This document shows, piece after piece, positions 11,646 to 29,655 of a stretch of DNA of 36,371 bases (positions are counted from its first letter, which is position 1; each line of letters starts with the position of its first letter). The DNA is from Vicinamibacteria bacterium (GTDB taxonomy: Bacteria > Acidobacteriota > Vicinamibacteria > Fen-336). The notes under the pieces are model-generated. The model was not told where the DNA came from and ran no database searches. It was given only the letters and a program-made list of their open reading frames with translations. The DNA lies in contig JAMPXO010000043.1 in NCBI GenBank assembly GCA_023701125.1, forward strand, positions 1 to 36,371. The letters run 5' to 3'. The position numbers and the translations under genes were made by a program.

Positions 11646-13042
11646 CTCCGGCGCCAGCGGGTCCCGCGCGGCGTGTCCTCGAGCACGATCCCGCGTCGCT
11701 CGAGGTCGGCCCGCACCTCGTCGGCGCGGCGGAAGTCGCGGGCCCGGCGGGCCTCCTGGCGGGCGTCGAACAGCGCCTGCAAGTCGGCCTCGAGGCGGTC
11801 CTCGCCCGCCGGCAGCAGCACGCCGAAGACCCGGTCCATGCGCTCGAACCGCTCGCGCAGGGCCCCGGCCCCGGCCGCGTTCAGCGCGCCGCCGGCCAGC
11901 AACTGGTTGGCGTCGGTGACCAGGCCGTGGACCGCGGCGATCGCCTCGGGTGCGTTGAGGTCGTCGCGCAGGGCCGCGGCGAACGCGGTCTCGGCCCGCT
12001 CCCCCGCCTCCAGCGCCGCGGCGCTGGCCGGGCCGGCGGTCTCCACCTCGCCCAGCCGGCGCACCGCGCCGTGGATGCGCTCGAGCGCGGCCTTGGCCTG
12101 GTCCAGGCCCTCGAAGCTGAAGTTCAACTGCTTGCGGTAGTGGGCCTGTGCGAGCAGGTAGCGCACGGCCTCGGGCGAGTGGCCCGCCTCGACCAGGTCG
12201 GGCAGCGTGAAGAAGTTGCCCTTGCTCTTCGACATCGTCTCTTCGTTCACCAGCAGGTGCTCGACGTGCATCCAGTGGCGGACGAAGGGGTGGCCCGTGC
12301 CGCACTGGCTCTGGGCGATCTCGTTCTCGTGGTGGGGGAAGATCAGGTCGACGCCGCCGGCGTGCAGGTCCAGCGTGTCGCCCAGGTACTTCATGCCCAT
12401 CGCCGAGCACTCGATGTGCCAGCCGGGCCGGCCCTTGCCGAACGGCGCGTCCCACTGCGCCCAGGCCGGCTCGTCGGCCTTGAGCTTCCACAGCACGAAG
12501 TCGCGGGCGTCCTCCTTCTCGTACTTGTCCGTGTCGACTCGCGCGCCCGCCTTCATGCCCGACACGTCGAGCCGGGCCAGCTTGCCGTAGTCGGGGAACG
12601 AGCCGATGCGGAAGTAGACGCTGCCGTCGGCGACGTAGGTGTGGCCGCGCGCGATCAGCTTCCCGATCAGCTCGACCATCTCCGCGATGTGCTCGGTGGC
12701 CTTCGGCACGATCTCGGGGCGCTCCATCCGCAGCGCCTTCATGTCCGCCTCGAAGGCCGCGATGTGGGCGGCCGTGAAGGGGCCGATCTCCTGGCCGGCC
12801 TCCGCCGCGAGCTTGATGATGCGGTCGTCGACGTCGGTCAGGTTCATCACCTCGCGGACGCGGAAGCCGCAGTAGGTGAGCGCCCGGCGCAGCACGTCGG
12901 TGGCGACGAAGGTGCGGAAGTTGCCGATGTGGGCGCGGTTGTAGACGGTCGGGCCGCAGGCGTACATGCGGACCTCGGGCGGCGCCGACGGCCGCACCTC
13001 CTCCACTTCCCCGCTCAGCGTGTTGTAAAGCCGAAAGCTCAT
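11642..13042 (-). CDS. cysS: Cysteine--tRNA ligase
   Basis: 466-residue class I aminoacyl-tRNA synthetase that charges tRNA-Cys with cysteine. Seen are the zinc-site Cys29 in MYACGPTVYN, the HIGH-like HIGN (38-41), the WHIECSAM zinc/substrate segment, HHENE, and the KMSKS-type loop TMSKSKGN. The C-terminal DALR/anticodon region is complete, so length is normal. The start ATG 13040-13042 overlaps the phosphatase stop (ATGA). Its place inside a partner-switching operon is unusual. The tRNA-Cys gene lies about 0.6 kb beyond the stop of cysS. Confidence 0.97.
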   Translation of the reverse strand: MSFRLYNTLSGEVEEVRPSAPPEVRMYACGPTVYNRAHIGNFRTFVATDVLRRALTYCGFRVREVMNLTDVDDRIIKLAAEAGQEIGPFTAAHIAAFEADMKALRMERPEIVPKATEHIAEMVELIGKLIARGHTYVADGSVYFRIGSFPDYGKLARLDVSGMKAGARVDTDKYEKEDARDFVLWKLKADEPAWAQWDAPFGKGRPGWHIECSAMGMKYLGDTLDLHAGGVDLIFPHHENEIAQSQCGTGHPFVRHWMHVEHLLVNEETMSKSKGNFFTLPDLVEAGHSPEAVRYLLAQAHYRKQLNFSFEGLDQAKAALERIHGAVRRLGEVETAGPASAAALEAGERAETAFAAALRDDLNAPEAIAAVHGLVTDANQLLAGGALNAAGAGALRERFERMDRVFGVLLPAGEDRLEADLQALFDARQEARRARDFRRADEVRADLERRGIVLEDTPRGTRWRRS

Positions 13043-14679
13043 CTCTCCCTTGCCTTCAGGACCAGGACGGTGAGGTCGTCGGTGCAGCCCGCCGCCCCCG
13101 CCCAGCTTCTCACTTCGTCGACCACCCCCGCGAGCAGCGCGTCGGCGTCCTGCTCGCGCCGCCTCGCCAGCGCGCGCCCGAGGCGATCGTCGCCCCACTC
13201 CGCGCCGGAGCCGTCCTGGGCCTCGGTCGCGCCGTCGGTCACCGCGGCGATCAGGTCGCCGGGACCGAGCTGCAGCTCGCCCACCTCGCAGGCGATCTCC
13301 TCCAGCAGTCCCAGCACCGGCGATCCGCAGCCGAGCCGGGACAGGCTGCCGTCGGCCCGCATCAGGACCGGGGGCACGTGGCCCGCGGTCGCGTAGCGCA
13401 CGAGCCCCGAGCCGGGGTCCAGCTCCGCGTAGAAGAGCGTCACGTACTTCGACAGCGAGGTGCTCTCGTACAGGAACGTGTTGATCCGCAGCATCAACTG
13501 GTCGATCGGCAGCGTCCCCGCCAGCGCCCGCAGCGAGGCGTGCAGCGACGCCATCAGCAGGCTGGCCGGCGTGCCCTTGCCGGAGATGTCGGCCACGGCC
13601 AGCGCCAGGCGCCCGCCGGGCAGCGGGATGTAGTCGTAGAGGTCGCCGCCGACCTCGTAGCAGGAGTGGCTGGCGGCCGCCACGGTGTATCCGGCCAGCG
13701 ACGGGCACCGGCTCGGGAACAGGCTGCCCTGGATCTCGCGGGCGATCTGCAGCTCGCGGTCCTGGCGCTCCTTGGCCAGCCGCACGCGCTGCAGCCGCAG
13801 CGTGTCGAGCGCCGCCAGCGCCTGCTGGCCCAGGGTGGCCGCGAAGTCGAGGTCCTCCTCGGAGACCGCGGCCCCCGAGGCGCGCGGGCCGATCGCGAAG
13901 AAGCCGCCCGCGCGCGGCCCCAGCCGCAGCGGGATGACCGTGGACACCCGCATCGCGACCAGTGCCTCGCGCAGCGGGCCCGGCGGCAGCGTGCCGACCG
14001 CCGCGGGCCGCTCGAGCAGCGCGAGCAGCGGTGCGCTCTCTTCGGCGGAGAACGCCGGAGCCAGCGCCGAGCGCACGCCCTTGGCGCCGGCCAGCGTCAC
14101 GCCCTCGCCGCCGGCCAGGAACAAGGCGGCCCGCGACACGACGAGGTGCCCCATCAACGTCGACAACGCGACGTTGAGCACGGTCGCCTCGTCGGGGCTC
14201 GCCGCCAGCTCGCGGGTGATCTCGAACAGCGTCTTCAACTGGAAGACCTTGACCGACAGCCGCTGGTTGAGCCGTCGCACCTCTTCGTCGGCCCGCTGCG
14301 GACCCAGCCGCTCGCCGAGCAGCCCACACAGGGCCCCGATCGCCGCGGCCTCGCGGTCTCCTGCCCCGAGGCCCAGTGCCCCGACGACCCGCCCCGAGTG
14401 GCGCACGGGCAGCAGCCGGTCGAGGCCCAGCGGCAGCGGCCCCTCGCCGCGCTCGACGTCGGTCAGCGAGAGCCGCCCGGTCCCCCCAGCATCGGTGGTG
14501 GCCGCCCCGCGCGCGGCGCGCAGACGCAGGCCGCCATCGGCCTCCGCGGCGAACAGCGCCAGCGACGAGCAGCCGGTCAGGCGCTCGGCCAGCTCCAGCA
14601 CCGCCGACTGCGCCGCTTCGTCCGTCGTCGTGTCCGGCAGGACCTCGAGCAGCCGGGCCAGCTCCGCCGCGCCGTTCAC
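13039..14679 (-). CDS. GAF-domain PP2C phosphatase, RsbU/SpoIIE type
   Basis: 546 residues, cytosolic (no membrane segment). Two GAF-like sensor regions (about 1-130 and 150-300) joined by a coiled linker lead to a SpoIIE phosphatase domain (about 315-546) with the metal-binding signatures VGGDLYDY, ADISGKG, TAGH, TDGATEA and DDLTVLVL. Such proteins dephosphorylate a STAS antagonist so that it can bind the RsbW-type kinase and free a target. Both of those partners are encoded immediately upstream, so the complete switch is present: signal into the GAF regions, phosphatase, STAS, kinase. Start and stop both overlap neighbours by 4 nt. Confidence 0.92.
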   Translation of the reverse strand: MNGAAELARLLEVLPDTTTDEAAQSAVLELAERLTGCSSLALFAAEADGGLRLRAARGAATTDAGGTGRLSLTDVERGEGPLPLGLDRLLPVRHSGRVVGALGLGAGDREAAAIGALCGLLGERLGPQRADEEVRRLNQRLSVKVFQLKTLFEITRELAASPDEATVLNVALSTLMGHLVVSRAALFLAGGEGVTLAGAKGVRSALAPAFSAEESAPLLALLERPAAVGTLPPGPLREALVAMRVSTVIPLRLGPRAGGFFAIGPRASGAAVSEEDLDFAATLGQQALAALDTLRLQRVRLAKERQDRELQIAREIQGSLFPSRCPSLAGYTVAAASHSCYEVGGDLYDYIPLPGGRLALAVADISGKGTPASLLMASLHASLRALAGTLPIDQLMLRINTFLYESTSLSKYVTLFYAELDPGSGLVRYATAGHVPPVLMRADGSLSRLGCGSPVLGLLEEIACEVGELQLGPGDLIAAVTDGATEAQDGSGAEWGDDRLGRALARRREQDADALLAGVVDEVRSWAGAAGCTDDLTVLVLKARER

Positions 14680-15095
14680 CCCGTCCCCCCGGGCTCCCGG
14701 CGCCGCTTCTGCAGGCAGCAGACGTTGCTGCGGCCCGACCGACGGTAGGTCACCGAGTCCATCAGGCGCGTCATCAGGTGAACCCCGAAACCGCCCGTGC
14801 GCCGCTCCGTCGCGAAGCGCTCCAGGTCGATCCGCGGCATCGCCCGCGGGTCGATCGTCGCCCCGTGGTCGACCACCTCCACCCGCAGCTCATCCTCGCG
14901 CAAGACGAAGCGCAGGAGGACGGGCCCGCCGGGCCGCTCGGCGTAGGCGTGCTCGATCACGTTGGCCACCGCTTCATCCGTGGCGAGCGCGATGCCTTCG
15001 GCATCCGCGGTGCCGAAGCCCGCGACCTCCGCCAGGCTGCGTGCGGTCTCGCGCACCAGCGACAGGTACTGGGTGCGGGCCGGGAAGCTGAGCAC
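14676..15095 (-). CDS. RsbW/SpoIIAB-type serine kinase, anti-sigma-like
   Basis: 139-residue HATPase_c_2 protein. The N-box region ALATDEAVANVIEHAY, the ATP-binding DHG (VVDHGATIDP) and the glycine-rich TGGFGVHLM segment are present, as expected for a GHKL kinase that phosphorylates a STAS antagonist and sequesters its target. The start is GTG 15093-15095; no better in-frame start lies between it and the STAS stop. The stop overlaps the phosphatase start by 4 nt. No sigma factor gene is near, so the target may be an unlinked sigma factor or a non-sigma protein. Confidence 0.9.
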   Translation of the reverse strand: MLSFPARTQYLSLVRETARSLAEVAGFGTADAEGIALATDEAVANVIEHAYAERPGGPVLLRFVLREDELRVEVVDHGATIDPRAMPRIDLERFATERRTGGFGVHLMTRLMDSVTYRRSGRSNVCCLQKRRREPGGTG

Positions 15096-15151
15096 GACGC
15101 TCGGCTTCCTGCGGCGGGGCCGCGAGCCGGCGGCGCCGGGCCGGTCCGCGC

Positions 15152-15517
15152 TCAGGAGGCCGCCCCGTCGCCCCCCGCGTAGCTGCCCACGGCTTCGACC
15201 GCCGTCGGGAACACGCGGTAGAGGTGGTGCAGGCCGAGGATCTCGAAGATGTTGCGCACGGTGTCGTTCAGTCCCGACACGCGCAGATCGCCGCCGGCGT
15301 CGCGAATTTCTTCGATCGTGCCCATCATCGCGCCGAGACCGGCGCTGGCGATGTAGACGAGCGCCGAGCAGTCGACCACGATCCGCACCCGGCCGTCGCC
15401 CAGCGCCCGCCGCAACGCGCCCTCGAACTCGGGGGCGGTGTGGGCGTTGACGAAGCCGCGCGGCAGGATCACCCGGACGTCGTCCTCGTCGCGTGCCTCG
15501 ACCAGCAGATCGTCCAT
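15152..15517 (-). CDS. STAS-domain anti-anti-sigma factor (RsbV/SpoIIAA type)
   Basis: 121 residues from ATG 15515-15517; longer starts would reach into ribF with an arginine-rich tail and are rejected. The fold is a single STAS domain. The phospho-acceptor region reads YIASAGLGAMMG, keeping the Ser of the DSxGLG consensus but replacing the preceding Asp with Ala. It is the expected substrate of the kinase encoded next and of the RsbU-type phosphatase after it. The gap to the kinase gene is 56 bp, larger than the overlaps elsewhere in this operon. Confidence 0.9.
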   Translation of the reverse strand: MDDLLVEARDEDDVRVILPRGFVNAHTAPEFEGALRRALGDGRVRIVVDCSALVYIASAGLGAMMGTIEEIRDAGGDLRVSGLNDTVRNIFEILGLHHLYRVFPTAVEAVGSYAGGDGAAS

Positions 15518-15527
15518 GCTCGCCCGA

Positions 15528-16469
15528 CTATAACGCGGGTGCCGCAGCCCCACCCAGCACGCGGCGGGCCTCGGCCGCGTCGGCGGCAATCTGCGCCTGC
15601 AGGGCCTCCGGGCCCGCAAACCGCCGCTCCTCGCGCAGCCGGACCACGAACGCGACCCGGGCCTGCTCGCCGTAGAGGTCGGCGTCGAGGTCGAACAGGT
15701 GCGCCTCCAGCCGCACCTCGTTGCCGCCGAACGTCGGCCGTCGGCCGATGTTGGCGACGCCCGGCACGACGCCGACGCCGGGCAACCGGACCCACACGGC
15801 GTACACCCCGTTGCCGGGGAGCAGCTCGTTGAAGGGCTGGATGTTGGCCGTCGGGTAGCCGAGCCCGCGTGCGCGCCCGTCGCCGCGCACGACCTCGCCG
15901 TCGATGAACAGCGGGCGGCCCAGCAGGCGCGCGGCGGCGTCGACCGCGCCCCGCACGACGGCCTCCCGCACCCGCGTCGAGGAGATCGGCATGCCCTCGT
16001 CGGCGACGTGATCGACGGCCCGCACCTCGAAACCGGCCGCGCGCCCCAGCCGCTGCAGGGTGGCGACGTCGCCCAGCCGGCCGCGGCCGAAGCGGAACCC
16101 CGTGCCGACGATGACGGCGCGCGCCCGCAGGCGACCGGCCAGCAGGTCGTTGGCGAACGCCTCGGCCTCGAGCGCGGCCAGCGCAGCGTCGAACGGCAGG
16201 ACGGCGACGCGCGGCAGCCCCAGCCGGGTCAGGGCCTCGACCTTCTGGGCCAGCGTCATCAGTGCCGCCGGGGCGCGGTCGGGGGCGAGCACGCGCGAGG
16301 GGTGCGGCTCGAACGTCAACGCGGCAGGGGCCAGGCCCAGCTCGGCCGCAGCCGCGAGGGCCCGTCGCACCAGCTCCTGGTGGCCGCGGTGGACGCCGTC
16401 GAAGTTGCCGACGGCGAGTGCCGCGGGGCGGTCAGCCGCGGAGGCCGCGCCGGGGCCAAGCCACTGCAC
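15528..16469 (-). CDS. ribF: Bifunctional riboflavin kinase / FAD synthetase
   Basis: 313 residues making FMN and then FAD from riboflavin. The N-terminal nucleotidylyl-transferase half has GNFDGVHRGH, the FEPHPS motif and ISSTRVR; the C-terminal kinase half has GRARGLGYPTANI and VANIGRRPTF followed by the EAHLFD segment with the catalytic Glu region. Length is normal. GTG 16467-16469 is the start because the frame has little room upstream after the DUF4388 stop (9 bp gap). No FMN riboswitch is visible: it is an internal gene of the 20-11 kb operon. Confidence 0.95.
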   Translation of the reverse strand: MQWLGPGAASAADRPAALAVGNFDGVHRGHQELVRRALAAAAELGLAPAALTFEPHPSRVLAPDRAPAALMTLAQKVEALTRLGLPRVAVLPFDAALAALEAEAFANDLLAGRLRARAVIVGTGFRFGRGRLGDVATLQRLGRAAGFEVRAVDHVADEGMPISSTRVREAVVRGAVDAAARLLGRPLFIDGEVVRGDGRARGLGYPTANIQPFNELLPGNGVYAVWVRLPGVGVVPGVANIGRRPTFGGNEVRLEAHLFDLDADLYGEQARVAFVVRLREERRFAGPEALQAQIAADAAEARRVLGGAAAPAL

Positions 16470-16478
16470 GGCCGCCGG

Positions 16479-17705
16479 CTAGCGCGCGGCCAGCGTGCGC
16501 CGCAACGGCTGGGGATCGTTCTCCCCGATCCCCAGCGTGTAGCCGCCCTCCGCAGGCGCGTACACGAACGCCCGCCCGTCGATCGCCCGCAGGTGGCGGC
16601 CGTCGACCAGGCCGGCCGTCACCAGTTCCTCCAGGCTCGTGGGCGCTGCGCCGGTGCCGAGGGCGAACGCGCGGATCGCCTGGTCCACCCGGGCGAGCCG
16701 GGTCCGGGTCGCATCCAGTTCCAGCGCGGCGAGCGGGGGCGTGAGCGCGGACGGCACGCCGATCAAACCGAAGGCCGCACCGCGGTGCATTCCGACTGCT
16801 GCCAGCGTCAGCAGGATCGCCGCAGCCAGCGCGGCGTAGCCGAGCACGGGCGAGGCCGCCGCCGCCTCCGCGGCCGCCTCGGCTCCACGCGTCGCGCCCT
16901 TGCCGGCCGGCGCGATGATGTTGCGGTTCAGCAGGTCGAACAGCGTGCGGCAGACCTCGAACTCCAGGGCCCCGACCGAGTCGACGACCTGCTGGACCGT
17001 GTTGCTGCCGTCCACGTGCTGGTAGACGCGATGCTCGTCGGGCGTCAGCTTGATCTTCGACGCCGCCGGGCCCGCGGCGCCCTTCGCGGCGTCGCCACCC
17101 ATGCCGGCGAACATCTCGTCGAGGCCACCGTCGTCCGACCCGCCGGAGAGCTCCACCAGCCGCGGGTCGACGGCGCTCTTGAACACGAGATCCATCGACG
17201 GGATCTTCTTCTCGATGATGGGCCACTCGTCCACCATCCGGATGCCTTCCATGAGGATGAAGTCCGCACTCATGGGGTTCGTGTTGTCGCGGTCGTAGTC
17301 GACCGAGTCCGTCGAGTCGAAGGCGTACTCGCCTTCTTTCCAGCGGAACAGGCGGAACAGCGTCTGCTGCACCTGGACCGCCAGCGCCGCCTTCAGGTCC
17401 TTGGGCGCCAGCGCGCCGGTCTCGACCAGCACGTGGCCGAGCCGCTGCAGGGTCTGCTTCTGCACGGCGAGCGCCTCTTCGAGCCGCTCGCGGGTCAGCC
17501 GCCCGGTCTTGACGAGGACGTGGCCGAGCTTGTCCTCGATCCGCTTGCCGATGGTGTCCGAGGCGACGACCATGCCGTTCTCGAACACGACGGTGACCTG
17601 CTCGGCGTCGCGCTTGAGCGTCAGCGTGCCCGTCTTCCGCTGCAGGCCGATCAGCTGGAAGATGTCCGGCAGCCCGAAGTCCTTGATCGATCCCGAGAGC
17701 GCCAC
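16479..17705 (-). CDS. DUF4388 domain membrane-anchored protein
   Basis: 408 residues from GTG 17703-17705 (AGGGGGG upstream). The N-terminus (about 1-60) is a DUF4388 domain (SGSIKDFGLPDIFQLIGLQ), followed by two similar segments, KLGHVLVKTGRLT and RLGHVLVETGALA, of the type seen at the N-terminus of type II secretion/pilus ATPases, and an acidic, flexible middle. A single membrane helix (about 287-305) leads to a roughly 100-residue C-terminal part containing FVYAPAEGGYTLG, which recalls the C-terminal motif of pseudopilins (GspG-like). Function is unknown; DUF4388 proteins are often linked to signalling or gliding/pilus control. It sits between the TPR protein gene and ribF. Confidence 0.85.
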   Translation of the reverse strand: MALSGSIKDFGLPDIFQLIGLQRKTGTLTLKRDAEQVTVVFENGMVVASDTIGKRIEDKLGHVLVKTGRLTRERLEEALAVQKQTLQRLGHVLVETGALAPKDLKAALAVQVQQTLFRLFRWKEGEYAFDSTDSVDYDRDNTNPMSADFILMEGIRMVDEWPIIEKKIPSMDLVFKSAVDPRLVELSGGSDDGGLDEMFAGMGGDAAKGAAGPAASKIKLTPDEHRVYQHVDGSNTVQQVVDSVGALEFEVCRTLFDLLNRNIIAPAGKGATRGAEAAAEAAAASPVLGYAALAAAILLTLAAVGMHRGAAFGLIGVPSALTPPLAALELDATRTRLARVDQAIRAFALGTGAAPTSLEELVTAGLVDGRHLRAIDGRAFVYAPAEGGYTLGIGENDPQPLRRTLAAR

Positions 17706-17715
17706 GCTGCCCCCC

Positions 17716-19671
17716 CTAGGCCCGGCGCGGCGCCGGACGCCGCGCGGCCGCAGCCGCCTTGACCTCGAACTGGAAGCTCGGCTTCAGCAACTGGGCCACG
17801 ACCCACGCCGCAACCGCGAGTGGGCCGGCCAGCACCATCGCCCAGACTCCCCACGACGCGGCCGGCACCAGCGTCACCTCGACCAGCCGGCCGGGCAACA
17901 CCAGCGCGACCAGTGCGCCGAACCACACGAACGCGAGCAGCAGCCCGATCACCGTGCTGCGGCCGAACACCTGGCCCGCGCCGGGGACGAACAGCGAAAG
18001 CAGCCGGAAGATCTTCACCCGTCGCCCTTCTTCCGCTTCCACGTCGCGCAGCTTGGCGTTACGGGCCGGACCGGAGACGCCGTCCTTGACCACGAACAGG
18101 TGCAGGCAGGGCGTGCACAGCGGCAGCGGGGCGTCGCTCGACGAGCCACCGCCCTTCTTCTTCGCGCCGAGGTGGCACAGCTTGCAGAACACGGCCCCGC
18201 ACTTCAGGCAGCGCAGCGTGAAGATGCGTTCACCGCGCCAGCGGGTGACCGCGAAAGCGCCGGCGCCGAAGACCAGCAGCGCGAGGCTGAAGCGGTTGAC
18301 CAGGCCGAGCCGGGGCCACGAGCCCTGGCCGGCGTAGCGCGCCTGCAACTCCGCAACGGTCGGCGCCAGGTCCACCACGGCGCTGGTGACGCTGCCGCCC
18401 TGCTCGTAGCGCCAGCGATTCTCCAGTTCGATCGGCAGGCCGGGGGCCGCGGCGTCGGCCTGGCTGCGGACCTCCTTGGCCGGCTCGCCCTCGAGCTTGT
18501 TGTAGTGCGCCAGCGACTTGTTGTACAGCACCGTCGCCCGCGTGCGCCCGGCCGGCGCGTGCTCCGCGGCCCGCGCGTACAGGTCGATCGCGGCCGTGAA
18601 GTTGCCGGCGCCGAAGTAGAGGTTGGCGAGGTTGTTGGTGGCGCGGAAGTCACGCGGGTCCTTCTGCTCCAGCCCGCGGTAGAGCGCCATCGCCTCCTCG
18701 TCGCGCCCGGCCTTGCGCAGGGCCAGCCCGACCAGGTGCTGCAGGTCGACGTCGTCAGGCTGAGCCGCCGCCGCCGCCGACAGAGCGTCGATCGCATGCG
18801 CCTCACCCCCGCCGGCCACTGCCTCGAGCGCCTCCAGGTAGAGCGGTGCGCTGCGTGCCGACAGGGCGGGGCCGAGGCTGTCGGCAACCGGGCCGACGGC
18901 CGCCAGCAGCAGCCACGCCACGATCGTCACGCCCTGCTCCACCGGGGCCATGTAGACGAGCAGCAGTGCCATCCACCACAGCGGGAGGTAGCCCCAGCCG
19001 AGCAACGCGACGCAGGGCAGCAGCAGCACCAGGACGAACAGTCCGAGCGCGACGATCCGCGGTCGGTCCGGACCCAGGTGCTCGTCGATGTCGTGCAGCA
19101 GCAGCCCGCCGTAGCGCAACAACAGGCCGCCGGCCAGCACCCACACGGCGCAGAAGGCCGCCAGCAGGCCGAGCGTCAGCAGCGAGGCCCTGAGGTGGAC
19201 CTTGCCTCCCGGCGCCGAACCACGGGCCAGCACGCCGCTCACGACGTGGCCGATGCCGGCGGGCACGCCGGCGGCGCGGGCCAGGCCGAAGTGGGCGTCG
19301 GCGAGGTGCGGGTCGAGCACCAGCGAGCGCTCGAAGTGAACGCGAGCGGCGTCCGGCTCACCTTTCGCCAACCGCTCGTGACCCAACAGCACGAGGCCCA
19401 GCGCAGGCACGGTCAGATTCTCGATGTTGCGCTCGACGCGCAACCGCCGCATCTCGTCGAAGACGCCTTCGACCTGCGGCGCCGCGCCGGAGCGTTCGGC
19501 CCGCGCGTACTCGGCGAGCAGGCCGTCGAAGCCCGCGACGGGAGTCGCGGATTGGGCGACGTCGATCACGTTCGGGACGGGCGTCGTGGCCGGAGCCGCC
19601 GCCGGTTCCTGCGCCGCCAGCGGCAGCGCGATCACCACGGCAGCGACCCAACGCAGGCTCCAGGGGCTCAT
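17716..19671 (-). CDS. TPR membrane protein with a zinc-ribbon-like segment
   Basis: 651 residues from ATG 19669-19671, which overlaps the DUF1844 stop (ATGA). Order: signal peptide (about 1-20, ALPLAA-Q), helical repeats, several membrane helices (about 165-290), a TPR array (about 310-430) with ATNNLANLYFGAGNFTAAI, a membrane helix (about 475), a cysteine cluster with three CxxC pairs (CLKC, CKLC, CTPC) that could bind zinc, and a C-terminal helical-hairpin membrane region. Function is unknown. The mixture suggests an assembly platform or sensor at the inner membrane; partner candidates are the flanking DUF1844 and DUF4388 proteins. Confidence 0.8.
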   Translation of the reverse strand: MSPWSLRWVAAVVIALPLAAQEPAAAPATTPVPNVIDVAQSATPVAGFDGLLAEYARAERSGAAPQVEGVFDEMRRLRVERNIENLTVPALGLVLLGHERLAKGEPDAARVHFERSLVLDPHLADAHFGLARAAGVPAGIGHVVSGVLARGSAPGGKVHLRASLLTLGLLAAFCAVWVLAGGLLLRYGGLLLHDIDEHLGPDRPRIVALGLFVLVLLLPCVALLGWGYLPLWWMALLLVYMAPVEQGVTIVAWLLLAAVGPVADSLGPALSARSAPLYLEALEAVAGGGEAHAIDALSAAAAAQPDDVDLQHLVGLALRKAGRDEEAMALYRGLEQKDPRDFRATNNLANLYFGAGNFTAAIDLYARAAEHAPAGRTRATVLYNKSLAHYNKLEGEPAKEVRSQADAAAPGLPIELENRWRYEQGGSVTSAVVDLAPTVAELQARYAGQGSWPRLGLVNRFSLALLVFGAGAFAVTRWRGERIFTLRCLKCGAVFCKLCHLGAKKKGGGSSSDAPLPLCTPCLHLFVVKDGVSGPARNAKLRDVEAEEGRRVKIFRLLSLFVPGAGQVFGRSTVIGLLLAFVWFGALVALVLPGRLVEVTLVPAASWGVWAMVLAGPLAVAAWVVAQLLKPSFQFEVKAAAAARRPAPRRA

Positions 19672-20078
19672 GCCGCACCCCCCTGGGCCCGGGCCATCCA
19701 CGCCATCCGCAGTTCGTACAGCAGGCGTTCCAGCACCTGGTCCTCGCGGGGCGTGCGGTTGCCGCTGGTCCGGGTCTGCAGCAGCTCGAGCATCGAGATC
19801 GCGTGGCGCGCGGCGGCCAGGTCGACCTTGGGTGCTCCCTCCCCGCCTTCTTCGTGCATCAGGCCGAGGTGGAACGCGGCGGCGGCCGCGAGGTCCGCGA
19901 ACAGCGCCTCGAGCGTCGCCTCCGGTGCGCCGCCCGCACTCGCCGCCGGCTCCGGGGGCGGTGCGGTGGCCTCGCGTGACGGTGCCGCGGGCTGCGCCTC
20001 GGGAGCGTCTTCGCGCAACTCTCCCTCGGGCGTGAAGCTCCTGCGGTCCTTTACGGTGAAGGGTCTGTCGTCGGTCAT
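19668..20078 (-). CDS. DUF1844 domain protein
   Basis: 136 residues. The N-terminal half is disordered and rich in Ala, Pro and Glu; the C-terminal half is the helical DUF1844 fold with the typical pattern DLAAARHAISMLELLQTRTSGN followed by a conserved LLYELRMAWM segment. Function is unknown. ATG 20076-20078 has GGGGAG upstream. It is the first gene of the long operon that runs down to yraN. Confidence 0.85.
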   Translation of the reverse strand: MTDDRPFTVKDRRSFTPEGELREDAPEAQPAAPSREATAPPPEPAASAGGAPEATLEALFADLAAAAAFHLGLMHEEGGEGAPKVDLAAARHAISMLELLQTRTSGNRTPREDQVLERLLYELRMAWMARAQGGAA

Positions 20079-26114: not shown

Positions 26115-26969
26115 TCAGGCGCCGGCGTCGAGCTCGAATGCCACCGCCGCGTGCGGAGCCGCGGCCGTCAGCGCGGCCACGCGCACCACGTCCACGCCGG
26201 CCTCGGCGAGCGCGCGGGCCTCCTCGGGATCGGCCGCGGCGGCCTCCACCGTGGCCCGCCCGGCGACCAGCGCCAGCGCGTCGCGGACCTGGACGACCGT
26301 CAAGGCCGGCAGCAGCAGCACCGCGGCGCCGGCCTCCAGCGCCTCCGGGATCTCCTCGAAGCGGCGCGGCGCCGCCATCACGTCGCGACCGCCCGCGCTG
26401 GCGACGGCGGCCTTGACGGCGACCGCCATGCCGCCCGCCGCCAGCACGTGGCCGCGCCCGACGCACAGGCCGGCGTCGAGCCCGTGGCGTGGCGCGACGC
26501 CACCACCCAGCTCGATCGCATGGCTCTCCAGGAAGCGCAGGCCCGGGGTGCTGACGCGGGTCCCGCGCACGCGGGCGCGGGTACCCGTCAAGGCCTCGAC
26601 GTAACGGCGGGTCAGGGTCGCGACGCCGGACAGGCGGCCGAGGAAGTTCAGCACGACGCGCTCGGCGGAGATCAGCGCCCGCGCCCGGCCCTCGACGCGG
26701 GCCAGCACGGTACCGGCCTCCGCGTCGAGGCCGTCCGCCAGCACGCCTTCCCAGCGGAACTCCGGGTCGAGGTGGCGGAACGCGAGAGCGGCCGCGTCGA
26801 GGCCGGCCACCACCAGCGGCTGGCGCGCGACCAGCGCCCCGGTCGCCATCACGTGCTCGGGCACGACCCGCGACGTGGTCAGGTCCCCGGCTCCGAGGTC
26901 CTCCTCGAGGGCGGCGACCACCGCGGCACGGATCCGCCGCGGGTCGAGCATCGGGGCGGTGTGGGTCAT
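26115..26969 (-). CDS. nadC: NadC-like protein with degenerate active site (quinolinate phosphoribosyltransferase family)
   Basis: 284 residues with the normal NadC length and fold markers: EEDLGAGDLT (22-31), ERVVLNFLGRLSGVAT (103-118) and TPGLRFLESHAIELGGG. The family makes nicotinate mononucleotide from quinolinate and PRPP. Many catalytic residues differ from the family pattern: DTRK is GTRV (136-139; Lys to Val139), NHR is APR (159-161; His to Pro160), LIKDNH is CVGRGH (169-174; Lys to Gly171), LDN is LPA (220-222; Asp to Pro221), EASGG is EAAAA, and GALTHS is AALTAA. The changes are spread in frame, so they are not a frameshift. It sits in the expected valS-nadC-birA-coaX order with a good Shine-Dalgarno. 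It may be inactive, regulatory, or have a changed substrate. Confidence 0.85.
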   Translation of the reverse strand: MTHTAPMLDPRRIRAAVVAALEEDLGAGDLTTSRVVPEHVMATGALVARQPLVVAGLDAAALAFRHLDPEFRWEGVLADGLDAEAGTVLARVEGRARALISAERVVLNFLGRLSGVATLTRRYVEALTGTRARVRGTRVSTPGLRFLESHAIELGGGVAPRHGLDAGLCVGRGHVLAAGGMAVAVKAAVASAGGRDVMAAPRRFEEIPEALEAGAAVLLLPALTVVQVRDALALVAGRATVEAAAADPEEARALAEAGVDVVRVAALTAAAPHAAVAFELDAGA

Positions 26970-26988
26970 GGCGTCCCCCTTCGGAGCC

Positions 26989-29655
26989 CTAGTTTGCTCC
27001 CGCTTCGCCTCCGGCTGGCGGTGGCAGCGGGGCCAGCTCGAGGGCGGTCACGGCCAGCTCGGCCCCGGCCTCGGTGACGAGCTCCACGCGCGGGGCGCGG
27101 GTTGCGGAAGCGAGGTCGGCGAGCCCGTGGTCGAGGGCGCGCGAGAGCTCGGGGTCCGCCCGCAGCACGAGCCGGGTCAGGTGGCGGCCGACGGAGGCCT
27201 GGGCCCCGGTTTTGGCACGATGCACGGCTTCCAGCGCGGCCGCCACGGCGTCGAACGCCGCAGCGTCGTCCAGCGTGGCGCCGATCGCCGCCCACTCGCC
27301 CGCCACGGGCCAGCTCGCGCGATGGACGCTGGGCGACGCGCCGGGGTCGGCCGCGAAGCGCCACGACCAGACCTCCTCCGCCACGTACGGCACGTACGGT
27401 GCGAGCAGGCGCACCAGCGCGTGCAGCCCGAGCCGCATCGACGCCACCGCGCTGGCGCGCCCGGCCGGGTCGCTTTCGTCGCGGGCGCGGTTCTTCACGA
27501 TCTCGATGTACGCGTCGGTGAAGCGGCTCCAGAAGAAGCGCTCGATGGCGTCGAGCGCCGTCGCGTAGTCCATCTCCTCGAGCGCGGCGGAAGCCCGCTC
27601 GACGGTCTCGCGCAGGCGGAACTGGAAGCCCTTGTCGACCGGGTGGGTGATCGCGCTGGCGTCGCCCGCCTCGCCGAGGCCGAGCACCAGCTTGCCGGCG
27701 TTGAACAGCTTGGTCACCAGCCGGCGGCCGACCTTCAGCACCTTTTCGTCGAAGGCCGTGTCGACCCCGAGCTTGGCGGACAGCGACCAGTAACGGACCG
27801 CGTCCGATCCGTAGCTGTCGAGCAGGTGCATCGGCGTCAGCACGTTGCCCTTGCTCTTCGACATCTTCTTGCGGTCGGGGTCGAGCACCCAGCCGGAGAT
27901 CGCGACGTTGCGCCACGGGATCTCGCGGTCGTGCAGCCAGGCCTTGGCGATCGTGTAGAACGCCCAGGTGCGGATGATCTCGTGGCTCTGCGGGCGCACG
28001 TCCATCGGGAACAGCTTCTTGTGACGCTCGGGCGCGTCGATCCACTGCGTGGCGAGCTGCGGCGTCATCGACGACGTGAACCAGGTATCGAACACGTCGT
28101 TCTCGGCCGTGAAGCCGCCGGGCTGGTCGCGCTGGCTCTCGCTGTAGCCCAGGGGCAGGTCCGTCGTCGGATCGACGGGCATCGCCTCCGGCGCCGCGAC
28201 GATCGCGCGCTCGTACTCGGGCCGGCCCGCCGCGTCGAGCGGGTACCAGACCGGGAACGGCACGCCGAAGTAGCGCTGGCGGCTGATGCACCAGTCGAGG
28301 TTCAGGTTCTCGGTCCAGTTCCTGAACCGCAGCCGCATGAAGTCGGGGTGCCAGGTGATGCGGTCGCCGGCCTCGATCAGCTCCTGCTTGTGGTCGAGCA
28401 CGCGCACGAACCACTGGCGGGTGGTGATGAACTCGAGTGGGCGGTCGCCCTTCTCGAAGAACTTCACGGGGTGCTCGATCACCTTCGGCTCGGCCTGCAG
28501 CGGCGCCTCGTGGACCGCGGTCGCCGAGCCGGCGGGGTCGCGCAGCGACTCGACGATCCGCTTCTGCGCCTCCTTCACCGACTGCCCCACCAGTCGCTCG
28601 TAGTAGGCGTTGGCCTCGTCGGCCTTCTCCGAGGGCCAGCCCTCGCTGCCGAAGACGACCTTCTCGAGCCGGCCGCCGCGGTCGACGATCTGGCGCAGCG
28701 GCAGCTTCTCGTCGCGCCACCAGATCACGTCGGTGGCATCGCCGAACGTGCAGACCATCAGGATGCCGGTGCCCTTCTCGGGGTCGACCAGCGGGCTCGG
28801 GAAGATGCGCACCGGGACCCGGAACAGCGGCGTGACCGCCTCGCGTCCGAACAGCGACTTGTAGCGCTCGTCCTCCGGGTGGGCGGCGACGCCGACGCAG
28901 GCCGGCAGCAGCTCCGGCCGCGTGGTCGAGATGACGAAGCTCTCCTCCGAGCCCTTCACGCCGAAGCGCAGGTCGTGGTACGCGCCGCGCATCGGCCGGT
29001 CCTCGACCTCGGCCTGGGCCACCGCGGTGCGGAAGTCGACGTCCCACATCGTGGGCGCCTCGTGGCTGTAGGCCTCGCCCTTCTTCACCAGGTCGAGGAA
29101 CGAGAGCTGGGCGATGCGCCGCGAGTGCTTCGAGATCGTCGAGTACTCGAGCGCCCAGTCGACCGACAGCGCGAGCCGCTGCCACAGCGCCTTGAACGCC
29201 TTCTCGTCCTCGTGGGTCAGTTGCAGGCACAGCTCGATGAAGTCGGCGCGCGAGACCTTCGTCGGCGGCTGCTTGCGGGTCGCGTCGTCCGCCATCTCGA
29301 ACCTGCGACCGGGCTGCGACGGCACGCCCGCCTCGCAGCGGACGTGGAAGTAGTTCTGGACCCGGCGCTCGGTCGGCAGGCCGTTGTCATCCCAGCCCAT
29401 CGGGTAGAACACGTTGCGGCCCTGCATCCGGCGGTGGCGGGCCAGCACGTCGGTCTGCGTGTAGCTGAACACGTGGCCGACGTGCAGCGAGCCCGAGACC
29501 GTGGGCGGCGGCGTGTCGACGACGTAGCGCGGCCCGGTCCCCTGTTCGTCGTAGCGGTAGGTCCCGTCCTGCGCCCACTGCTGGTCCCACTTCTGCTCGG
29601 CGGCGGCCGAGTCGAAGTGCGGTGGGAGCGTGGCGACGTCGACCGGAGTGGGCAT
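26989..29655 (-). CDS. valS: Valine--tRNA ligase
   Basis: 888-residue class I synthetase charging tRNA-Val. It has the HIGH-like HVGH in PPPTVSGSLHVGHVFSY, an editing (CP1) domain, the WFTSSMTP segment, and KMSKS in KKMSKSKGN. PPPTVSGSLHVGH and the continuation GWDDNGLPTERRVQN match the actinobacterial/rickettsial/archaeal-like ValRS class rather than the E. coli type (PPPNVTGSLHMGH), and a C-terminal coiled-coil arm is not evident. The start ATG 29653-29655 has GAGAGG upstream; the in-frame ATG at 29697 is less likely. First gene of the valS-nadC-birA-coaX block. Confidence 0.95.
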   Translation of the reverse strand: MPTPVDVATLPPHFDSAAAEQKWDQQWAQDGTYRYDEQGTGPRYVVDTPPPTVSGSLHVGHVFSYTQTDVLARHRRMQGRNVFYPMGWDDNGLPTERRVQNYFHVRCEAGVPSQPGRRFEMADDATRKQPPTKVSRADFIELCLQLTHEDEKAFKALWQRLALSVDWALEYSTISKHSRRIAQLSFLDLVKKGEAYSHEAPTMWDVDFRTAVAQAEVEDRPMRGAYHDLRFGVKGSEESFVISTTRPELLPACVGVAAHPEDERYKSLFGREAVTPLFRVPVRIFPSPLVDPEKGTGILMVCTFGDATDVIWWRDEKLPLRQIVDRGGRLEKVVFGSEGWPSEKADEANAYYERLVGQSVKEAQKRIVESLRDPAGSATAVHEAPLQAEPKVIEHPVKFFEKGDRPLEFITTRQWFVRVLDHKQELIEAGDRITWHPDFMRLRFRNWTENLNLDWCISRQRYFGVPFPVWYPLDAAGRPEYERAIVAAPEAMPVDPTTDLPLGYSESQRDQPGGFTAENDVFDTWFTSSMTPQLATQWIDAPERHKKLFPMDVRPQSHEIIRTWAFYTIAKAWLHDREIPWRNVAISGWVLDPDRKKMSKSKGNVLTPMHLLDSYGSDAVRYWSLSAKLGVDTAFDEKVLKVGRRLVTKLFNAGKLVLGLGEAGDASAITHPVDKGFQFRLRETVERASAALEEMDYATALDAIERFFWSRFTDAYIEIVKNRARDESDPAGRASAVASMRLGLHALVRLLAPYVPYVAEEVWSWRFAADPGASPSVHRASWPVAGEWAAIGATLDDAAAFDAVAAALEAVHRAKTGAQASVGRHLTRLVLRADPELSRALDHGLADLASATRAPRVELVTEAGAELAVTALELAPLPPPAGGEAGAN

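Follow-up and report, generated by a model that had tools for sequence, protein, structure and literature searches.

A conserved DUF1844, TPR/zinc-ribbon and DUF4388 gene trio of Acidobacteriota encodes a putative cyclic di-GMP receptor with a predicted pilin-like domain

The 36,371-nt stretch of DNA analysed here (contig JAMPXO010000043.1, referred to below as the window) comes from a Vicinamibacteria bacterium whose draft genome comprises 5.4 Mb in 254 contigs and whose closest named relatives are the metagenome-assembled genomes ACD1 (Vicinamibacteria) and ACD2 (Acidobacteria). Three consecutive genes on its reverse strand encode a DUF1844 protein (19668..20078; 136 aa; PF08899, E=1.8e-17, residues 54-128), a polytopic tetratricopeptide repeat (TPR)/zinc-ribbon protein (17716..19671; 651 aa; several TPR families in Pfam, best E=2.4e-10), and a DUF4388 protein (16479..17705; 408 aa; PF14332, E=5.1e-33). 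An earlier note, made from the letters of the window, had proposed that the trio forms an envelope complex and had described its products as a DUF1844 protein, a membrane TPR protein with three CxxC pairs, and a DUF4388 protein with a single membrane helix; our analysis bore out this description and the coordinates. The spacing of 4-10 nt given there captured the close packing of the genes, but the 4 nt are an overlap, between the DUF1844 and TPR genes, while the 10 nt are a true gap, between the TPR and DUF4388 genes. Three features described below, i.e., an MshEN insertion, a winged helix, and the presence of more than one membrane helix in the TPR protein, were absent from that note.

The DUF4388 protein contains a predicted MshEN site for cyclic di-GMP (c-di-GMP) at 17373..17531 on the reverse strand, where two 24-residue halves are joined by a 5-residue spacer (KLGHVLVKTGRLTRERLEEALAVQ-KQTLQ-RLGHVLVETGALAPKDLKAALAVQ). 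We take MshEN to be a domain of the PF05157 type. The 53-residue insertion (residues 59-111) lies inside the DUF4388 domain, which scored 114.1 bits against PF14332 (gathering score 25) in the window protein and was matched by that family in 54/54 orthologues. The insertion itself scored 50.7 bits against the NCBIfam model NF053729 (cut-off 38; E=1.1e-13), all 54 aligned orthologues matched the same model at E<=0.01, and the two halves and their spacer were gap-free throughout. Contact residues were those defined by Wang et al. (PMC5013675), and the consensus tested consisted of two motifs of the form (R/K/L)LGxx..G..LxxxLxxQ, with 12 contact positions and I/V/M accepted for L, the first position having been widened to R/K/L, according to a 2024 study of the PilF GSPII-B domain (PMC11731258). 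All 12 positions were present in the window protein and in 48 of the 54 orthologues, while a complete set was found in none of 54,000 shuffled sequences. Motif II has its central G in the window protein and in 26/54 orthologues. In the window protein a lysine replaces the first Arg of the motif, as in motif I of PilF GSPII-B, and the same study reports that PilF GSPII-B, with lysine first in motif I, binds c-di-GMP with a dissociation constant of 6 nM (PMC11731258).

Structural comparisons agree with this assignment. A profile search of the PDB returned PilF (E=1.7e-14) and MshE (E=3.5e-8), with alignments confined to residues 54-117. In an AlphaFold2 (AF2) model built from 54 sequences, with a mean predicted local distance difference test (pLDDT) score of 88.3 and a predicted TM-score (pTM) of 0.62, the MshEN part superposed with 42% identity on chain B of 5htl (c-di-GMP-bound MshE), at 0.6 A across 53 columns; Foldseek matched the same chain with a probability of 1.00 and an E of 0.35, and VIA-align gave the four-helix bundle a Z of 6.9 and a root-mean-square deviation (rmsd) of 2.7 over 60. 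Profiles and models together strongly indicate the predicted binding of c-di-GMP by the four-helix insertion, and we regard the DUF4388 protein, with good confidence, as a putative c-di-GMP receptor. What the earlier note had called a signalling-type part may thus be named more concretely as a predicted, complete MshEN site. Like the MshEN (GSPII) domains of MshE, PilB, and PilF, it has the tandem 24+5+24 motif, the four-helix fold, and the contacts, but here MshEN is inserted into the DUF4388 domain of a membrane protein, whereas traffic ATPases carry it at their N-terminus; no ATPase family, T2SSE included, appeared among the Pfam matches of the window protein at E<=1.

The genome holds 19 DUF4388 loci (L153-L171), i.e., a large paralogous signalling family, and the complete contact set occurs in just one of the 19, that of the trio. 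Seven of the other paralogues carry at least one MshEN-like half-motif in the insertion, none of them with both halves complete, and the remainder carry none, as judged from profile-guided frames (2/19 without a match) and a scan of all frames.

The AF2 model places four elements in order: the DUF4388 fold with its four-helix insertion, a winged helix, a membrane helix, and a pilin-like domain. Since the pTM was 0.62, how these domains are arranged relative to each other is uncertain. The winged-helix-like region (residues 163-269; 16899..17219, reverse strand) was aligned by VIA-align to the winged-helix parts of known structures with Z up to 9.9 and an rmsd of 2.1 over 74, its best structural matches being subunits of GATOR1/SEA; helix-turn-helix families matched weakly (TrmB in 6/54 orthologues). 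These matches would suit a one-component membrane transcription regulator whose winged helix binds DNA and whose GspG-like domain senses the periplasm, with c-di-GMP as the gate. However, winged helices also act as protein-protein modules, the best structural matches here are the GATOR1/SEA subunits, and such a regulator would leave both the DUF1844 protein and the TPR partner unexplained; we consider it decidedly improbable. The membrane helix that follows (residues 286-306; 16788..16850, reverse strand; near 281-307 by hydropathy) reaches a Kyte-Doolittle (KD) maximum of 2.19 in the window protein and exceeds 1.6 in 53/54 orthologues.

Beyond the membrane helix lies the GspG/pseudopilin-like domain (residues 323-402; 16500..16739, reverse strand), to which the GspG-like FVYAPAEGGYTLG in the tail of the window protein had already drawn attention. 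Its model matched the V. vulnificus major pseudopilin 3gn9, with an rmsd of 2.2 over 79 and a Z of 8.1, as well as 4lw9 (EpsG, Z 7.8) and 6xxd (PilA4, Z 7.2). Since the alignment tool describes Z values near 8 as common, the assignment leans on sequence matches too: T2SSG was matched by 16/54 orthologues, and among ten orthologues scanned singly it was found in five, always after the membrane helix and four times above the cut-off, with no match in the other five. A pilin or pseudopilin fold for the C-terminal ~80 residues is supported by both model and sequence, as the earlier note had anticipated, and the domain probably lies outside the inner membrane. Like GspG/EpsG and PilA, it consists of a helix plus beta strands; unlike them, it follows an internal membrane helix of a 408-aa protein, and neither of two patterns detected a class III prepilin signal before that helix in any of the 54 orthologues. 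Thus, the pseudopilin likeness extends to the fold, while identity as a true pseudopilin was rejected.

The AF2 model of the TPR protein (pLDDT 88.9, pTM 0.85) and its hydropathy outline a signal-peptide-like N-terminus, a first TPR region (TPR1, residues 48-152), a stretch at 156-262 with three or four membrane helices, a second TPR region (TPR2, ~276-428), a membrane helix at 460-479, a six-cysteine zinc ribbon at 488-522, and two C-terminal membrane helices. The CxxC pairs of the window protein begin at residues 488, 496, and 519; Cys488, 491, 519, and 522 were invariant in 56 sequences, and Cys496 and 499 in the 17 of alignment A2. Averaged over the 56 sequences, net charge was +9.8 for the zinc-ribbon stretch, -1.1 for TPR1, and -4.2 for TPR2. 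Considering this charge pattern and the signal-peptide-like start, along with hydropathy, both TPR regions probably face the periplasm, and the zinc ribbon and the C-terminus the cytosol. This topology is probable and not certain, because it requires four helices within residues 156-262, as in the AF2 model, whereas averaged hydropathy has three peaks there and with three helices the faces would be exchanged. The TPR solenoid resembles that of the pilus proteins PilF/PilW and Tgl (2fi7, Z 15.5; the TPR matches are generic), but the trio's protein differs from them in being polytopic and in carrying a zinc ribbon. Its identity with these pilotins was rejected on scores of 25.1 against a cut-off of 154 (TIGR02521) and 23.9 against 225 (NF033762). 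Structure searches returned only generic TPR matches and no solved relative of the whole protein, and the zinc ribbon had no convincing match in the PDB (best E=0.016, a ribosomal protein).

The DUF1844 protein scored 63.7 bits against PF08899 (gathering score 27), has no hydrophobic segment by the KD scale, and had a best PDB match of E=0.34, which we took as no match. In alignment A6, which comprises 23 hand-chosen DUF1844 sequences, most members begin with a DRRxFTxDG-like motif (20013-20066 in the window) followed by a low-complexity linker. This N-terminus is possibly a docking peptide.

A comparison of gene neighbourhoods across the phylum, which the earlier note had suggested, was then made with a profile of the zinc-ribbon region (A3). 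Among 396 genomes, 139 contained a TPR/zinc-ribbon protein at E<=1e-3 and 131 at E<=1e-6; a match to this profile defines a TPR/Zn genome below, and the full trio was checked in the loci that were fetched. From the 131 genomes we picked, non-randomly, 40 distant loci (L113-L152), one to three per family from 33 families, in which the TPR start sites, and hence the DUF1844-TPR gaps, are approximate. The complete trio, in order and on one strand, was present in 34/40 of these loci from 33 other Acidobacteriota families; L143 starts, and L123 ends, too close to the genes for a judgement. The TPR and DUF4388 genes were adjacent in 38/39 testable loci and overlapping or no more than 11 nt apart in 33/39. 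In one lineage, an 816-aa open frame separates the two (L133:6801-9248). Rows were dropped from some of the alignments (A4 lacks L064, L067, L071, L082, L123, and L146, and A5 lacks L064, L075, L081, and L146), while A1 contained L067 and L082.

Close relatives contributed 20 loci (L063-L082), and in 14 of them the trio was complete; in three of the remaining six it was cut by a contig end (L076, L081, L082), and the other three (L077, L078, L079) had no DUF1844, with only ~800 bases available upstream of the TPR gene in L078. Conservation within this set says little, because in most of its loci the trio sits inside a long conserved block that runs from NadC and RlmD through ComEC to RibF, STAS, HATPase, and SpoIIE; its neighbours in the window, RibF and ComEC, are also those in most close relatives. 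The distant loci are more varied. Flank searches there were performed on open frames instead of called genes, with distances taken to frame starts and nine flank clusters annotated, and they placed a divergent MazG gene upstream in 19 of the 40 loci, an ABC transporter upstream in three, and RibF downstream in four. Since the trio is kept across 33 families while its flanks differ, it travels as a unit, and we conclude that it is a real gene trio conserved across the phylum. Neither outcome that the earlier note would have counted as a refutation, a trio lacking conservation or a tail modelled unlike a pilin, was thus observed.

From the order and overlap of the genes, it seems fairly likely that the three proteins form one complex. 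They might instead have unrelated functions and merely share a conserved housekeeping block, as the long block (RlmD, ComEC, RibF, and others) in the window's family and in family f10 would allow, along with the wide distribution of DUF1844. However, the trio is intact in 33 other families whether it is flanked by dnaK, an ABC transporter, RibF, or MazG, and the tight TPR/DUF4388 junction recurs with it; we consider three independent functions improbable.

Genomes with the trio's TPR protein were also compared with the others for c-di-GMP and pilus genes. GGDEF proteins occurred in 131/131 TPR/Zn genomes (E<=1e-6) and in 251/265 others; since they are present in 382/396 genomes, they hardly discriminate. 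A strong PilM match (E<1e-20) was found in 123/131 TPR/Zn genomes vs 188/265 others, in Fisher tests that ignore phylogeny.

The title of a 2006 paper by Makarova reportedly describes a PatA domain with an alpha-helical insertion, and we take DUF4388 to be the corresponding PATAN domain. If the names are indeed equivalent, the trio's protein shares this domain with the PATAN response regulators PixE, PixG, and LsiR, which act on type IV pilus motility, but, unlike them, it comes from Acidobacteriota and combines a membrane helix with a pilin-fold domain; no receiver (REC) domain was found in it by Pfam at E<=1. In cyanobacteria, the pilus motor PilB1 is an interaction partner of PATAN-REC proteins (PMC7690835, PMC9090330).

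The explanation that best fits these features is a trans-envelope c-di-GMP effector complex, to which we would give about an even chance. In the cytosol, the MshEN four-helix insertion of the DUF4388 protein would bind c-di-GMP, and ligand binding would alter the DUF4388/winged-helix part. The change could then travel through the single membrane helix to the periplasmic GspG-like domain, which, together with TPR1 and TPR2 of the partner, would form the outer face of the complex, as charge and hydropathy suggest. The inner face would consist of the partner's zinc ribbon and the DUF1844 protein, an interaction to which gene order and overlap point. The likeliest output, and the weakest step, would be to control a machine of the pilus or secretion type that consists of pilin-fold subunits. 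We propose a type IV pilus or a machine of the type II secretion system (T2SS) because of the pilin fold, the cyanobacterial precedent of PATAN (assuming that it and DUF4388 are the same), and the co-occurrence with PilM and GGDEF; this identity of the output is plausible, though we lean slightly away from it. It is more speculative still, and on balance doubtful, that the receptor ends in a non-assembling periplasmic pilin-fold domain, a mock pseudopilin that caps, seeds, or blocks a pilus or pseudopilus at the inner membrane. If true, c-di-GMP would exert control from the periplasmic side rather than via an ATPase, through an envelope machine found at the level of a phylum. With its conserved predicted c-di-GMP site, a single protein would link reception of a second messenger on one side of the inner membrane to a pilin-fold domain on the other. 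Such a link would be a direct, testable way for c-di-GMP to exert control in Acidobacteriota, and it offers a testable role for DUF4388 and DUF1844, both families of unknown function. Our searches of an open-access library turned up no earlier description of the trio; its parts are known, and the combination of a complete c-di-GMP site with this architecture appears to be new.

Several results weigh against the effector complex. Within the receptor, the predicted c-di-GMP site is imperfect in 6/54 orthologues, and Foldseek gave no match at E<=0.001 for the DUF4388 model, so that we relied on the low rmsd and high probability together with the sequence profile. The window protein itself had no T2SSG match in the Pfam scan, L137 and L149 have a very short tail, with 42 and 29 residues beyond the helix, respectively, and the tail profile matched 33/39 loci, the exceptions being these two, L124, L125, L148, and the truncated L146. 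DUF1844 was not found beside the TPR/DUF4388 pair in L077, L078, and L079 (all of family f10), nor in L120, L125, L142, and L148; since it occurs in 344/396 genomes, vs 139/396 for the TPR/zinc-ribbon protein, it is not dedicated to the trio and has a wider role. Strong PilM was lacking from 8/131 TPR/Zn genomes, several of the genomes being incomplete, and phylogeny confounds the difference in PilM, since whole families lack both, as well as the difference in GGDEF. No pilus gene was present among the nine annotated flank clusters.

Among the neighbours found downstream of the trio in the distant loci, dnaK (HSP70) was the most frequent; it lay 4-162 nt away on the same strand in 23/40; 19 of these 23 loci also had a same-strand hsp20 (17 of them at ~2 kb) and 18 a sigma70 gene at 2.1-4.1 kb. 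The pilus idea does not predict this link, which supports a different role for the trio, namely a membrane-linked proteostasis or stress module that is co-expressed with DnaK, Hsp20, and sigma-70 and helps to fold, deliver, or monitor envelope proteins while c-di-GMP tunes it. Also in its favour, TPR proteins are common chaperone partners. However, charge predicts its TPR regions to be periplasmic, away from cytosolic DnaK, the window and most close relatives have RibF and ComEC beside the trio, and the pilin-fold domain would be left unexplained. Such a module is, in our view, unlikely.

As a more general observation, the dnaK-hsp20-sigma70 series beyond the trio is a recurrent stress-gene arrangement in Acidobacteriota. 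Elsewhere in the window, RibF is followed by a set resembling a partner-switching system, with STAS, HATPase, and SpoIIE phosphatase genes (13039-15619), and most close relatives have the same set; it had no match beside the trio in L074, and in L075 YraN lies directly 3' of RibF. Finally, a 754-aa open frame at 26966-29230, which matched no NCBIfam model at E<=0.1 and no Pfam family at E<=0.001, shares 75-77% identity over ~635 residues with sequences from two relatives (L061 and L062).

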